The translations under genes and the position numbers were made by a program. The notes under the pieces were generated by a model. It made no database searches. It was not told where the DNA came from and saw nothing but the letters and a program-made list of their open reading frames with translations. This document shows, piece by piece, positions 35,221 through 40,888 of a DNA stretch of 64,000 bases; position 1 is the stretch's first letter; each line of letters opens with the position of its first letter. This DNA is from Thermotoga sp. Mc24 (lineage in GTDB: Bacteria; Thermotogota; Thermotogae; Thermotogales; Thermotogaceae), in NCBI RefSeq assembly GCF_000784835.1, contig NZ_JSFH01000007.1, positions 1-64,000 on the forward strand, written 5' to 3'.

Positions 35221-35249
35221 AAGAGGGGCCAAAGCCCCTCTTTGTTTTT
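35221..35249. terminator. Bidirectional terminator between valS and the NifX-like gene
   Basis: AAGAGGGGC CAAA GCCCCTCTT followed by TGTTTTT on the plus strand and by A-rich sequence upstream, which gives U residues on the minus strand. It separates the convergent valS and NifX-like genes. Confidence 0.82.
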
Positions 35250-35623
35250 CAGTGGTGTTCGTGATGGTGATGGTCATGAACTTCGTAGTCTGAATCTTCC
35301 AGTTGTCCTGAGAGATACTGGTTCACCACTTCTTCCACCGTTCCAGATGCACCCCTTATCACTTTTATACCCAGGGCTTCGAAGGTAGAGATGGCTCTTC
35401 TTCCGATACCTCTCACTATCACCAGCTCTGCTCCTTTTTCTTTCACAAAATTTGGGACAGCACCGTGAACATGATCCTGTGCAAGAGGGTTTTCTTCAAC
35501 ACTGATATCCGCTATTGTGTTGTTCTCCACCTTCACGAATGCGAAATACGGCGCTCTACCGAAGTGTTCCGATATGGGAGAATCTTTTCCTCTGTTTTCG
35601 GAGACAGGAATGGCTATGATCAT
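35249..35623 (-). CDS. NifX/NifB-type iron-molybdenum cofactor-binding family protein
   Basis: A 124-residue protein of the dinitrogenase iron-molybdenum cofactor biosynthesis fold. It begins [25 protein letters not shown] (in part: [11 protein letters not shown]), followed by the conserved [23 protein letters not shown]. The tail is strikingly His-rich ([10 protein letters not shown]), suggesting a metal-binding extension. Family members bind Fe-Mo or other metal-sulfur clusters; many occur outside nitrogen fixation and no nif genes are in the window. It lies 14 bases after the ferredoxin gene and is probably co-transcribed with it. Confidence 0.88.
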
Positions 35624-35637
35624 TGTTTCACCTCCTC

Positions 35638-36057
35638 TCAGGGTTCGGGTTTGGTTTCCGTTTCTTTTGGTGACAGATGATCTTCGGCCAGGAGAGGCTT
35701 TATTATCTCAAAGGCTTTCTTCACAATTTTGTTCTGCGCAACCAGCTTTTTTATATAGGAAGCATCGGGGAAACTTATCGCTCCTGTCGGACAAAGGTTC
35801 ATGCACGTCTGACACGCGACCATACAGTTGTAAGGACGCGCCACTATCACTTTTCCCTCTTTTTTGTCGAAGTCGAACACTCGTCTTCCGCAGGTTACAA
35901 AGCAGATTCCACATGTCACACATTTATCGTAATCGATGGTCGGGTACCACTCTATTTCTTTCCTGTCCACGCCCCACCATGGGACTTTAGAAAGATCACG
36001 AACTTCTCGACCAAGGGCATCCTTTCCAATCAACGGAGTGTTCTTTGCCTCTGCCAT
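35638..36057 (-). CDS. Ferredoxin-like 4Fe-4S protein
   Basis: A 139-residue cytoplasmic electron carrier. Two cluster motifs are visible: [11 protein letters not shown] followed by GRRVFDF, and [13 protein letters not shown] followed by TGAISFP, so two 4Fe-4S clusters are predicted. An N-terminal extension of about 45 residues ([18 protein letters not shown]) precedes the first cluster. ATG 36057 sits seven bases after GGGAGGG, but that site can pair with TCCCTCCC upstream, next to a tiny Cys/Trp-rich ORF, which suggests control of translation. It leads a two-gene operon with the NifX-like gene. The redox partner is unknown. Confidence 0.9.
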
Positions 36058-36062
36058 AGTCT

Positions 36063-36102
36063 TCCCTCCCAGTTTTGTTTTTCTTCGTGGTAAGGGGAGG
36101 GA
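36063..36102 (-). promoter_or_regulatory. Hairpin able to mask the ferredoxin ribosome site
   Basis: On the minus strand TCCCTCCC (36102-36095), starting 3 bases after the leader-ORF stop codon, is perfectly complementary to GGGAGGGA (36070-36063), which is the Shine-Dalgarno site of the ferredoxin gene. The loop is 24 bases. There is no U-tract, so translational rather than transcriptional control is suggested. Confidence 0.6.
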
Positions 36103-36105
36103 GTA

Positions 36106-36144
36106 TCAATACCCGCACCACCAGCACTGACAGACCTTTCTCAC
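36106..36144 (-). CDS. Short Cys/Trp-rich leader peptide upstream of ferredoxin
   Basis: A 12-codon ORF starting at GTG 36144 and encoding MRKVCQCWWCGY, then TGA. GAGGTGA lies five bases upstream of the GTG, a very good ribosome site; a second in-frame GTG at 36153 would add three residues. Three Cys and two adjacent Trp codons fall in seven codons. A consensus promoter would start the transcript only a few bases before the ribosome site. The stop codon is immediately followed by one arm of a hairpin that covers the ferredoxin ribosome site. I infer an attenuation leader sensing Cys or Trp supply or a metal/redox state. It could instead be a functional metal-binding microprotein, or chance. 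Confidence 0.5.
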   Translation of the reverse strand: MRKVCQCWWCGY

Positions 36145-36162
36145 GACTCTCACCTCAGGGAA

Positions 36163-36192
36163 ATTATATACTTTTTGCATATATTTGGTCAA
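36163..36192 (-). promoter_or_regulatory. Promoter of the leader-peptide/ferredoxin operon
   Basis: On the minus strand TTGACC (36192-36187), an 18-base spacer and TATAAT (36168-36163). Transcription should begin near 36156, at the leader ORF's ribosome site. Confidence 0.78.
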
Positions 36193-36300
36193 ACAAAAAA
36201 TCGCAGAGTTTGGAGAATTTTTCTTGACTATTACATCAGAAAAAAATCATCGATAATGACTACTCAAAGAAAAAAGAATAGTATGCAAAGAAAATTTTAA

Positions 36301-36339: not shown

Positions 36340-37089
36340 ATGAGATTGAAAGTTTCTTTTCAGGCGATGGAAAGCACTGTTCCGTTGAATTACAACTATT
36401 TTCTTTCTTCTTTCATCTACAAGAGATTGGCTTCACAGAATGAAAACTTTGCCAGATTCCTTCACGAGAAGGGTTATGGGAAGAGGTTCAAGTTTTTCAC
36501 TTTTTCACAGCTTTTCTTTGAAAATTCCAGAGTCAGCGGTGAGAAAATCTTCATATTTCCAGGAAAAGGATGGTGGTACATCTCATCCCCAGTAGTTGAA
36601 TTCGTCAGGTACCTGTTTTCTTCTCTCTCCGAAGATCCCGTGATCAGGGTAGGGAAAACAGAGTTCATCGTGAGATCCATAGACATCGAAAATTCTCTTC
36701 CTGACCAGTCGGAATACCACTTTATCATGCTGTCACCGCTTGTGGTCAGTGTACCTGAAGAAAACAACGGAAAGCTTTACCACAGGTATCTTCATCCGGG
36801 AGAGGAAGAGTTCTACGAAGTTTTCAGAAAAAATCTTATGAAGAAGTACAGAGCTTTTTACGGAAAAGATCCAGAAGGCACTGTTGAAGTCATCCCCGAT
36901 TGGGATTACATCAAATCACGTCAGCGGATAACCAAGAGGATCAAATTGAAAAACGCGTTCGTCAGAGCCGTGGTTTTCCCGTTCAAAATCAGGGGCGAGA
37001 AAAAGCTTGTAGAGATCGGCTATGAAGCGGGTTTTGGAGAGAAAAACAGCATGGGATTCGGAATGGTAGCGTTGAAGAAAGATATATAA
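36340..37089 (+). CDS. cas6: Cas6 CRISPR RNA endoribonuclease
   Basis: A 249-residue RAMP protein that cuts the array transcript inside each repeat to leave an 8-base 5' handle. The N-terminal ferredoxin fold includes the Cas6-type LNYNYFLSSFIYKRL segment, and the C-terminal Gly-rich loop GFGEKNSMGFGMV is diagnostic. It is the only Cas6 in the window, yet three effector systems and one array are present, so it probably serves all of them. It is first in a rightward operon running through the csm genes, with ATG 36340 behind AAGGGGGAAAC. The catalytic residues cannot be assigned from sequence alone. Confidence 0.94.
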   Translation: MRLKVSFQAMESTVPLNYNYFLSSFIYKRLASQNENFARFLHEKGYGKRFKFFTFSQLFFENSRVSGEKIFIFPGKGWWYISSPVVEFVRYLFSSLSEDPVIRVGKTEFIVRSIDIENSLPDQSEYHFIMLSPLVVSVPEENNGKLYHRYLHPGEEEFYEVFRKNLMKKYRAFYGKDPEGTVEVIPDWDYIKSRQRITKRIKLKNAFVRAVVFPFKIRGEKKLVEIGYEAGFGEKNSMGFGMVALKKDI

Positions 37090-37100
37090 GGGGTGATGAA

Positions 37101-38714
37101 ATGTGTGAAACAGTCAAGCTGGTTACTTTTCTTGGTTTAGGTGAATACGAAAAAAGTTGTGTAGTTTTTGAAGAGGGTTTTTGTGTTCAACAAAGAATCT
37201 TTCCTCTGGCAATAGTTGAGTATCTGAATCATATCGGGAAGCATGTTGAAGTGTTATTCTTTCTGACAAAAGTGGTAAAAGAGAAAGAAAAATGGAGCGA
37301 GTGCATAAAATTTTTGGAGGCAAGAAAGGTACCTTACAAAGATTTTGAAATATTAGAAGAGCTACCCCCAGGTGACCTAATGAACTTTCTAGTAAAGAAT
37401 CTTATAGAGAATCTGGAAGAAGGGGACAGAGTTATACTGGATGTTACTCATTCGTTCAGAAGTATTCCATTGATGGCAAGTGTAGTAGCCCTGTACCTTA
37501 AAGAGGCCAAAGATGTTAATGTGAGCGTAGTTTACGGCAAGTACAATAAAGAAACAAAAGTAACAGAGTGCGAAGATTTGACCCCACTAACTGAAGCTAC
37601 ATCATGGATATATGCTGTTCGATTGTTCAAAGAGTATGGATATGCGAAAGAACTCGCTGATTTGATAAAAAAGAGAAATGAAGAAATATACAGGAGAAGT
37701 CAAAGTTCGAAAAAACCAAAGCTACTTGGTTCTATGTCTCAAAAACTTCAGGATCTTTCGTCTTCTATACGTCTTGGATCCATAGTAGCCATAAGGAAGA
37801 ATTTAACCAATTTCTTCAATTTTATTGATAGAAATAAGGCAAGAATAAGAGAGGAGACGGAGGTTTTTGTTCCAGAGATTGCGGCTCTCTTAGATGGGAT
37901 CGAAAAAAGATACAGGGCTATACATGTTAAATCGGAGAATTTTGAACTGAGCGAAAAAGAATTGGAATCTGAAAAAGAGTTACTGGATTTCTATCTTCAA
38001 ACAGGAGATTTAGGTATGGCTCTTCGTTTGGCAAGAGAATATCTTATAAATGTCTATTTGATGTCTGGAGGGGAGAAGAGTGACTTCTTGGATAGAAATG
38101 TTAGAGAGTCTGTGAACATTTCAACGTTTGGCTATGATACCATCCTTCAGGCAAGAAATCATGTTGCTCATTTCGGATTCAACAAACTCCAGCTTCCCTC
38201 CTTGAAAAAGATAGAAGATCACCTGAAAGTGCTTGTTCAAACCCCACCGGAACAACTTCTGGAGTCTGCGAGAAAAACTCAGCGAAACAGAAAAAGAGCT
38301 CTTCTCACTCCTCTCGGTACGACAAAAGGTGCTTTATACACCGTTCTGAAAAAAATTTCACCTGATCTACTCCTGGTTATAACTTCAAAACAGGGAAAAG
38401 CTATTCTTTCAGAAATTCTGGAGAAAGCTGAATTCAAGGGTGAATTTAGGGTAATCCTTCTCGAAGACCCTTTTATGGGTGTAAGTGAAATAGATCGAGT
38501 AGTATCCGAAATCAAAGAACATCTTTCTGACGTGGATGAAGTGATCGTCAATCTCACAGGTGGAACCACTTTTCTTACGTACGTTATCGAGCGTGCCAAA
38601 AATCAAATTAGATACGGAAGAAAAGTAAAAACTATCCTGGCTGTGGACAAGAGAACTTACGAAGAACAAAAGCAAAATCCTTTTGTGGTGGGTGAAATTC
38701 TGGAGCTTGATTGA
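37101..38714 (+). CDS. CARF-HEPN CRISPR ancillary nuclease (Csx2/TM1812 family) with an extra C-terminal CARF-like domain
   Basis: The product has 537 residues. The N-terminal part (1-170) has the DxTH signature as LDVTHSFRSIP (near 113), a CARF fold that binds cyclic oligoadenylate. A helical HEPN region (about 200-385) contains RNHVAHFGF near 352, an R-x4-H ribonuclease motif. Residues 395-515 look like a second CARF-like Rossmann fold: ALLTPLGTTKGALY, PDLLLVITSKQ and VIVNLTGGTTFLTYV, the last resembling the nucleotide loop of Csm6/Csx1. It should be switched on by cOA made by the neighbouring Cas10. The gene is visibly more A+T-rich than its neighbours. The double-CARF reading is my inference. 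Confidence 0.82.
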   Translation: MCETVKLVTFLGLGEYEKSCVVFEEGFCVQQRIFPLAIVEYLNHIGKHVEVLFFLTKVVKEKEKWSECIKFLEARKVPYKDFEILEELPPGDLMNFLVKNLIENLEEGDRVILDVTHSFRSIPLMASVVALYLKEAKDVNVSVVYGKYNKETKVTECEDLTPLTEATSWIYAVRLFKEYGYAKELADLIKKRNEEIYRRSQSSKKPKLLGSMSQKLQDLSSSIRLGSIVAIRKNLTNFFNFIDRNKARIREETEVFVPEIAALLDGIEKRYRAIHVKSENFELSEKELESEKELLDFYLQTGDLGMALRLAREYLINVYLMSGGEKSDFLDRNVRESVNISTFGYDTILQARNHVAHFGFNKLQLPSLKKIEDHLKVLVQTPPEQLLESARKTQRNRKRALLTPLGTTKGALYTVLKKISPDLLLVITSKQGKAILSEILEKAEFKGEFRVILLEDPFMGVSEIDRVVSEIKEHLSDVDEVIVNLTGGTTFLTYVIERAKNQIRYGRKVKTILAVDKRTYEEQKQNPFVVGEILELD

Positions 38715-38734
38715 GAAAAGGAGGTGAATCTTCC

Positions 38735-40888
38735 TTGAAAGACAGAGAAGAGCTTGTCGTTGGGGCTCTCCTGCACGACATAGGAAAGATCGTAAGAAGG
38801 GCGGGGGATGACAGAAGACATCAGATTGCCGGATACGATTTTACAAACAAAGTGAAGAAATTCGCTGTAATTCAGGACTACATTCACTACCATCATGAAA
38901 AGGATCTTCTGAAAAAAAGTTTGGAAAACGAAAAGGTTTGGTATGTGTGCTTCGCAGACAACCTCTCGAGCAAAGAAAGAATGACTGAAGGTCAGAAGTT
39001 TGAAGAACTTCGAAGAATGGACAACCTCCTCTCAAAGATCCCGGAGGGGGAATCTTCCAGAAACGTCACTTACTTTCCTGCAAAACCAGCCAACGAAGTG
39101 GTGGAAGCGGTAAAGGATATGAAAGAAGATCAGAAAACCTACGAGGATCTCTACAGGAGATTTGTCGAAGACGCTCAGAAGATTTCTCCCACACCAGATG
39201 ATGTGAATTTTCTCACTTACAAGTACTTCTCGTTCATTCCTCAGGAAACAAGAGTGGAAGGAGACATGGATATATCGCTCTACGACCATCTGAAGGTCAC
39301 GGCTATGCTCGCTCTCTCGCTCTATGACTACGCAAAGGAAAACGACCTCAAATTCGAATCCTACCAGGAGATGAAATCATACTTTGAGAATTCCGACGTG
39401 AAACCTTTCCTCCTTGTTGGGGGAGATGTCTCCGGGATACAGAACTTCATTGCCAACGTCTCTTCAAAAGGCGCTCTCAGATCCTACAGAGGAAGGAGTT
39501 TCTTCATAGAAATTCTCCAGGAAGTCGTTGTGGATGAGATTCTTGATAAAACAGGCTTTTACAGGACAAACGTTCACTTCATAGGAGGAGGGCATTTCTA
39601 CCTCGTCCTTTCCAACACGGAGAAGGTGAAGAAAGCCCTCGAAGAGATCAGAAACGAGTTGAACGAATGGTTCAGAAATAGGGGTCTTTCACTCCACCTT
39701 GTGATCGAATCTGTTGAATTTTCGGTGAAAGACGTGGAAGACATGTCCAAGGTTTTCAAGAAGATCGGTGAAAAGTTGAACGAAAGAAAATACAGAATGT
39801 ACACGGAAAAAGACCTTGAAGCGATCTTCCCCGATGATTTGAATCTGATCCAGGAGAAGGGAAACCACACCTGCAAAATCTGTGGAAACAGAGTAGACAG
39901 GCTCTTTTCCATTCGAGAAGGGGAAGAGGAAATTGCATGTGACTTCTGCAAGGAAATGTACGATCTTGGAAGAGAACTTCTTGAAGAGTCTCACGTGTAT
40001 CTTGCTGAAAGAAAGAATGGAAAGTTCGAGATTTTTAAGAGAAAATTCGATTTCTCGAGAGAACCGGGAGAGGGTTTCAGCTACAAGTTGAGAAGGATAT
40101 ACGAATTCTCAGAGAAGGAAAAGAACGTCAGAAGAATACAGGTGGTGACGTATTTCAAAGAACAGGAGTTCGAGAAAATCGCAGAAAAAGCACCTGGCAA
40201 AAAAATAGCGAGCCTCCTTGTTGACGTTGACAACCTTGGAAAGATCTTTCTCAAAGGCTTAAAGAAAAAGACCCTCTCCAGATACAGCACCCTCTCAAGG
40301 CTCATGAGCTTTTTCTTCAAAGAAAGAGTAGAGAGTATTGTTGAAAGAAAGAACGTTATGGTGATCTATTCCGGTGGAGACGATCTCTATTTGGTTGGCG
40401 GATGGAACGATGTTCTGGATGTGGCAAAAGAGTTGAGAGAGGCGTTTGGAAGATTCACAACGAACGATTTCATGACGTTCTCTGCGGGATACGTGATCAC
40501 CGATGAAAAGACAAGCATGAGCCTCATAAGAGAAATGTCTGAAAGAGCCGAAAGCGCTGCCAAGAAATCCGGGAAGAACAGCATAGCATTTTCGAACAGA
40601 AGCTACTATGCAGTGAAGTGGAACACCTTCTTCGAAATGTACAACTTTTATCAAGAGCTGAAGGAAATAGCAGATAAAGTGGACAGAAGTGTCATCAGAA
40701 AGGCTTTGAATCTCACAAGGGAAGAGTCTCCTCTGAACAAAGCCTTCCTCGCCTACATAGAGGCAAGGGAGAACAAAGACGAAGACAAAAGAGTGGCAAA
40801 TCTCATGAGAGAGAACATAGATCACCTCGGTGAAAACGCCTTGAATGTAATCCTCCAGTTTGTGGATCTTCATGCAAGAAAAAGCTGA
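38735..40888 (+). CDS. csm1: Cas10/Csm1, type III-A large subunit
   Basis: The product has about 717 residues. The N-terminal HD nuclease motif LLHDIGK is at residues 13-19, with HQIAGYDF and IHYHHEKD adding ligands. The first Palm domain starts near 226 (VGGDVSGIQNF), followed by a zinc ribbon (CKICGNR...CDFCKEM) and a second Palm with intact SGGDD near 547, predicted to make cyclic oligoadenylates. TTG 38735 is chosen because AAAGGAGGTGA ends seven bases before it; the upstream in-frame codons contain that site. It is the signalling and ssDNase subunit of the Csm complex, next to its likely CARF effector. Confidence 0.95.
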   Translation: MKDREELVVGALLHDIGKIVRRAGDDRRHQIAGYDFTNKVKKFAVIQDYIHYHHEKDLLKKSLENEKVWYVCFADNLSSKERMTEGQKFEELRRMDNLLSKIPEGESSRNVTYFPAKPANEVVEAVKDMKEDQKTYEDLYRRFVEDAQKISPTPDDVNFLTYKYFSFIPQETRVEGDMDISLYDHLKVTAMLALSLYDYAKENDLKFESYQEMKSYFENSDVKPFLLVGGDVSGIQNFIANVSSKGALRSYRGRSFFIEILQEVVVDEILDKTGFYRTNVHFIGGGHFYLVLSNTEKVKKALEEIRNELNEWFRNRGLSLHLVIESVEFSVKDVEDMSKVFKKIGEKLNERKYRMYTEKDLEAIFPDDLNLIQEKGNHTCKICGNRVDRLFSIREGEEEIACDFCKEMYDLGRELLEESHVYLAERKNGKFEIFKRKFDFSREPGEGFSYKLRRIYEFSEKEKNVRRIQVVTYFKEQEFEKIAEKAPGKKIASLLVDVDNLGKIFLKGLKKKTLSRYSTLSRLMSFFFKERVESIVERKNVMVIYSGGDDLYLVGGWNDVLDVAKELREAFGRFTTNDFMTFSAGYVITDEKTSMSLIREMSERAESAAKKSGKNSIAFSNRSYYAVKWNTFFEMYNFYQELKEIADKVDRSVIRKALNLTREESPLNKAFLAYIEARENKDEDKRVANLMRENIDHLGENALNVILQFVDLHARKS

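Follow-up and report, generated by a model that had tools for sequence, protein, structure and literature searches.

A conserved Cys/Trp leader peptide and a covarying helix over the ribosome-binding site suggest a translational attenuator upstream of sulfur-linked genes in Thermotogota

A short open reading frame (ORF) upstream of a ferredoxin gene in Thermotoga sp. Mc24 is probably the leader of a ribosome-mediated translational attenuator, specific to Thermotogota, that serves reactive-sulfur genes. On comparative grounds, this leader is a short ORF that is led by its own Shine-Dalgarno (SD) sequence and selected at the peptide level. As read from the sequences, the leader ORF comes with conservation of its peptide, a covarying helix at a near-fixed distance from a CxCWWxG core, and sulfur-linked targets. 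The original prediction had proposed a translational attenuator for the ferredoxin that responds to Cys/Trp supply. The attenuator itself is supported by the peptide-level selection and by a hairpin that masks the SD, while the supply link and the specificity for ferredoxin were not borne out.

The window, defined here as the whole 64,000-nucleotide stretch of DNA that was analyzed, belongs to the genome labeled G000 in the genome comparison. The promoter, leader SD, leader ORF, anti-SD, and ferredoxin SD are all present on its minus strand, as had been described. The sigma-A type promoter TTGACC-18-TATAAT (36163..36192) has 11 of 12 matches and an 18-nucleotide spacer, with the -35 TTGACC at 36192-36187 and the -10 TATAAT at 36168-36163. 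It is the best promoter-like site of the region, and the TTGAC/TATAAT spacing is conserved at the other Thermotoga loci as well. The leader SD, GAGGTGA (36150..36156), is kept in all Thermotoga loci. The leader ORF (36106..36144) has a GTG start and a TGA stop and encodes MRKVCQCWWCGY, 12 codons that include three Cys and two adjacent Trp. The anti-SD TCCCTCCC (36095..36102) begins three bases past the leader stop and is the exact complement of the ferredoxin SD GGGAGGGA (36063..36070), so the perfect complementarity that had been claimed holds (36102-36095 against 36070-36063). The two are separated by a 24-nucleotide hairpin loop (36071..36094) whose sequence is not conserved. No terminator-like site was found between the leader and the ferredoxin gene, and no U-run follows the hairpin, which is therefore not an intrinsic terminator.

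The putative regulated gene (35638..36057, minus strand, ATG at 36057) encodes a 2[4Fe-4S] ferredoxin of 139 amino acids. By gene order, it is probably TM1815. The Tm1815 type of ferredoxin is described in PMC12929197. The second gene of the operon (35249..35623, minus strand) encodes a NifX/NafY-type protein (Nitro_FeMo-Co, PF02579) with full-length matches to PDB 1t3v and 1o13. This NifX-like protein is a mere family relative of the sulfide-induced IssA/SipA (PMC5524996). An identification of the ferredoxin with SipB was rejected, since Thermococcus onnurineus SipB is described as an ‘ATPase C-terminus’ and only the NifX-like protein shares the SipA/IssA family. Divergent from the leader operon, positions 36340-40888 on the plus strand hold a Cas6 gene, as TIGR01877 and Pfam confirm, and after it two large ORFs (CARF-type-like and Cas10-type-like). 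At gathering score, Rfam matches the window only once, with an FMN riboswitch (RF00050, 23322-23443, plus strand, 123.6 bits).

Leaders were identified in two ways. Nine ferredoxin leaders were located by their position upstream of the orthologous ferredoxin, without a search motif. The pattern TGYNNNTGYTGGTGGNNNGG, which leaves V unconstrained while requiring C, C, W, W, and G, was then run over 103 Thermotogota genomes, with matches judged in context, and added four leaders before other genes. Within the genus Thermotoga, the ferredoxin leaders read MRKVCQCWWCGY, MRKVCWCWWCGY, and MRKVCRCWWCGH. Outside it they read MRKICHCWWCGH (G002), (M)IRKVCFCWWHGD (G101), and MRRVCQCWWRGH (G099). The remaining four are MKKRKVCNCWWVGH before a TDT/SLAC1 gene (G083), MRNHTHVCKCWWDGWK before a 55-amino-acid ORF that is followed by TDT (G022), MKIKRARVCKCWWDGWGISSS... 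before a TauE/SafE gene, where the leader ORF runs on (G021), and MKFVCHCWWVG before a small ferredoxin in an ars operon (G008). The leaders are 11 to 32 amino acids long and share the consensus (R/K)(K/R)VCxCWWxG. In G101 the probable TTG start of the leader overlaps the stop of the upstream thioredoxin-like gene (AGTTGA), which suggests translational coupling of the leader.

Clear copies are present in exactly 13 of the 103 Thermotogota genomes, from seven genera and six families, and not throughout the phylum. Most Thermotogota lack the leader, including seven that have the same ferredoxin. Within the genus Thermotoga, only one genome (G095) is without it; the ferredoxin there contains an internal TAA and matches at only 65%, so that gene decay and leader loss occur together. 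A sequence-only model of 33 nucleotides, R1, separates the 13 leaders (E ≤ 2.8e-4) from everything else in the 103 genomes (next 0.0099); because the 13 include its own training sequences, this shows that the set is complete but is no confirmation of its members. Outside Thermotogota, R1 had no match in the phylum of Thermococcus (115 genomes) or in a further phylum (17 genomes). The phylum of a Tissierellia bin (398 genomes) gave two R1 matches, both judged by eye to be background, one within a purQ-like gene and one on a frame that runs antisense to a pilT-like gene, and a loose motif scan of the same genomes yielded only background among the first 30 loci listed.

The codons of the core show what is being conserved. 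Synonymous change has reached saturation (pS 0.93) at the codons for V, C, C, W, W, and G, and amino-acid change there is almost absent (pN 0.014), which means that the peptide itself is conserved. Replacement is free at the x codons, where pN is 0.56. Loss of the peptide or of the complementarity in close relatives had been named as refuting the original prediction. This applies in part to the hairpin, whose helix has lost strength without compensation in G093, which is very closely related to the strain of the window, and it does not apply to the peptide.

The SD/anti-SD duplex of the window has a predicted energy of −17.3 kcal/mol, and 24 of 1000 dinucleotide shuffles were equally good. At other loci, the number of shuffles per 1000 that were as good was 0 (G096), 1 (G021), 3 (G083), and 16 (G022), with a weaker excess in G101 (66) and G093 (96). 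As a control, upstream complements to the SD were sought for 40 SD-bearing genes of the window, and none of 7 nucleotides or more was present. The global fold of the window leader is ordinary (z of −0.64), so it is the particular helix, and the fact that it is conserved, that carries the significance.

An SD complement occurs soon after the peptide, 14 to 20 nucleotides past the Trp codons, in 10 of the 13 loci. Its CCTCC core lies 17 nucleotides past these codons in all six Thermotoga loci, 14 in G101, 20 in G083, 18 in G022, and 19 in G021. The spacing is thus kept at the TauE locus (G021) though the ORF runs on. The flanks of the core change jointly between loci, as in TCCCTCCC/GGGAGGGA, CCCTCCTCT/AGAGGAGGG, TGTATCCCTCC/GGAGGGATACA, and AGCTCCTCC/GGAGGAGCT. 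In an alignment of the 10 loci (A2), built with the loops cut out and anchored on GGAGG so that information lies in the flanking pairs only, 6 of the 11 helix pairs are changed on both sides and the covariation score is 0.301, compared with 0.162 in shuffles. None of 500 shuffles reached this score, and it falls to 0.09-0.16 when the register is slid. Two loci (G002 and G099) have no SD complement, and G008 has only a weak one. A hairpin that sequesters the SD and that a ribosome could open is present in the window and in 9 to 10 of the 13 loci, and is absent or weak in three. The Trp codons can pair with the loop, as an anti-anti-SD, in the window genome, but this pairing was rejected because by eye it is not conserved.

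The effect of ribosome position was modeled with energies at 37 °C and the ribosome represented by its footprint. With an empty leader, the predicted cost of opening the SD core in the Thermotoga loci is 9 to 15 kcal/mol. When the footprint extends to 22 nucleotides past the Trp codons (WW+22), which places the last codon or the stop in the P/A sites, this cost falls by 4 to 11 kcal/mol in nine loci. A footprint to WW+15, which corresponds to a ribosome on the Trp codons, brings no opening, and the SD stays as closed as in the empty leader or becomes more so. For 44 window genes of the same geometry, used as controls, the gain had a median of 0.1 kcal/mol and peaked at 3.9 kcal/mol. The TDT locus of G022 is predicted to gain nothing from a halted ribosome. 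Since WW+22 frees the SD in the model and WW+15 does not, a halt that switches the gene on would have to sit at the end of the peptide. This fits a termination-type arrest better than hungry Cys or Trp codons.

The supply of Cys and Trp had been named as a possible signal. Under this reading, scarce Cys- or Trp-tRNA would stall the ribosome on C-x-C-W-W and free the ferredoxin SD. Three Cys and two Trp among the 12 window codons, a Trp pair as in trpL, and the tie of Cys supply to sulfur speak for it. It is nevertheless unlikely: the modeled stall at the Trp codons does not open the SD, V and G match C and W in their degree of conservation, and no gene for amino-acid biosynthesis, import, or tRNA charging is among the targets. 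The sign would also be wrong, as sulfur shortage would induce exporters.

It is equally improbable that the peptide is the product, a trans-acting micropeptide that binds metal or sulfur, with the hairpin merely a coupling device. The Cys-rich core, the peptide-level selection, and the two leader loci without an SD-masking hairpin would agree with such a role. However, the peptide has only about 12 residues with two or three Cys, and the leader is always directly upstream of a target. The position of the anti-SD moreover follows CWW, also at the locus with an extended ORF, which points to action in cis.

Codons UGY, UGG, and UAU are read in many bacteria by tRNAs with ms2i6A37, a modification made by the Fe-S enzyme MiaB. 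A tRNA-modification sensor, in which low sulfur or Fe-S leaves these tRNAs undermodified and slows the ribosome, would suit a leader rich in U-initial codons, and T. maritima ferredoxins reportedly support MiaB in vitro. We regard it as very unlikely, because the fixed Cys and Trp are never swapped for other U-initial codons, the x codon of CxC is U-initial in only 3 of 11 cases, and the conservation of V and G is left unexplained. An RNA-only switch (riboswitch or thermosensor) with an incidental ORF, although SD sequestration by a hairpin in hyperthermophiles would suit it, is scarcely credible given that the conserved core is free to vary at its third codon positions, that the loop sequence is not kept, and that no Rfam family matches within 36000-36250 even at E up to 1.

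The targets of the leader are the ferredoxin, TDT/SLAC1, TauE/SafE, and the small ferredoxin in the ars operon, and all are linked to reactive sulfur or thiophilic stress. In relatives, the ferredoxin, TDT, and TauE genes are grouped with TusA, DsrE, Sulf_transp, ArsP_1, and ArsR genes. The ferredoxin adjoins TDT in G041, G089, and a Thermococcus bin, and a TDT remnant in G039. Leaderless ferredoxin genes occur with TauE and ArsR in G039 and G080, and in G039 also with a TusA-DsrE protein. In G043, TDT is grouped with ArsR, TusA, and Sulf_transp. In G101, genes for an ArsP_1 permease and a thioredoxin-like protein precede the leader and ferredoxin, and those facing them encode TusB/C/D-like proteins and an ArsR-TusA fusion (L002, 3112-3693, minus strand). 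The leader of G008 is flanked on one side by ArsC/ACR3-like genes, whose ArsC and ACR3 matches are below the curated family cut-offs, and on the other by the ferredoxin.

An ArsR gene, identified by Pfam for two and by sequence motif for the rest, adjoins 5 of the 6 leaderless intact ferredoxin genes and at most 1 of the 9 that bear a leader (Fisher p of 0.011, with relatedness ignored). From this contrast, the leader seems to replace an ArsR repressor. Upstream of the Thermococcus ferredoxin orthologues (L005, L007, and L008) are GTTnnnAAC boxes, which we liken to the SurR consensus; the same ferredoxin gene may thus be sulfur-controlled by SurR in Thermococcus.

The attenuator reading can be set out as follows. 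By default, a ribosome would read the leader and leave, and the anti-SD would then shut the following gene by pairing with its SD. A ribosome lingering at the last codon or stop would cover the anti-SD with its footprint and free the SD. Ribosomes would pause at the leader end, and the pause would turn the downstream gene on. The signal, judged from gene neighborhood, may be persulfide, polysulfide, sulfide, sulfite, or a thiol-binding metalloid, and would be read through the nascent CxC peptide. As a more tentative possibility, the nascent CxC of a 12-residue chain, near the peptidyl-transferase center, could itself bind the signal or be modified by it, halt the ribosome together with WW-x-G, and so take the place of an ArsR-type repressor. 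Arsenic-type and sulfur-type contexts both occur, and arsenite-like metalloids may be as likely as sulfur species at some loci.

The original prediction knew of no description of such a leader. Searches of Rfam and of an open-access library with few subscription journals found no description of this leader, and the library gave none of TM1815 regulation; a published account elsewhere is possible. If true, the attenuator reading would add a class of leader peptides with a fixed consensus, new in its translational control of sulfur or thiol stress in hyperthermophilic bacteria, and a Cys sensor inside the ribosome would extend the short list of nascent peptides that sense small inorganic signals. 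The unexplained ferredoxin/NifX-like operon, TDT, and TauE genes of Thermotogota would become one proposed regulon.

Several known systems resemble this leader. Attenuators of the ermC/cat type also have a short SD-led ORF, and a hairpin past it hides the SD of the gene that follows. There, halting of the ribosome within the leader opens the hairpin, which for the Thermotogota leader is a proposal. They answer ribosome-binding antibiotics, whereas the Thermotogota leader targets sulfur-handling genes and its CxCWWxG core is unrelated. The mycobacterial leader ORFs of Canestrari et al. 2020 (in PMC9094748) are likewise short and Cys-rich and attenuate operonic genes; going by the title, they are polycysteine, leaderless, and cysteine-responsive, whereas in the Thermotogota leader the fixed positions include Trp, Val, and Gly besides Cys, and the ORF is led by an SD. 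The uORFC-8-2 upstream of cysS (PMC8632094) shares conserved Cys codons but is a transcription attenuator of cysteinyl-tRNA synthetase in Rhodobacterales, with another target, phylum, and hairpin logic. ArsR-family and SurR proteins would control the same target genes in related genomes, but as DNA-binding repressors that are not encoded by a leader; several of the adjacent ArsR proteins carry a CxC within a CQCE-type motif. In CruR (DUF2946), a copper-responsive upstream ORF, a conserved Cys motif of the nascent chain detects a chemical signal (PMC9426467), and, as proposed for the Thermotogota leader, an upstream ORF with a Cys motif controls downstream genes. CruR combines CXXC with a C-terminal RAPP arrest motif, Rho-dependent termination, and copper genes, in contrast to the 11 to 32 amino acids, CxCWWxG, and anti-SD hairpin of the Thermotogota leaders, none of which (0 of 13) has RAPP or the CruR combination of CXXC and RAPP. 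For the Thermotogota leader, a nascent CxC sensor is the most interesting possibility, and CruR provides a precedent for sensing of this kind.
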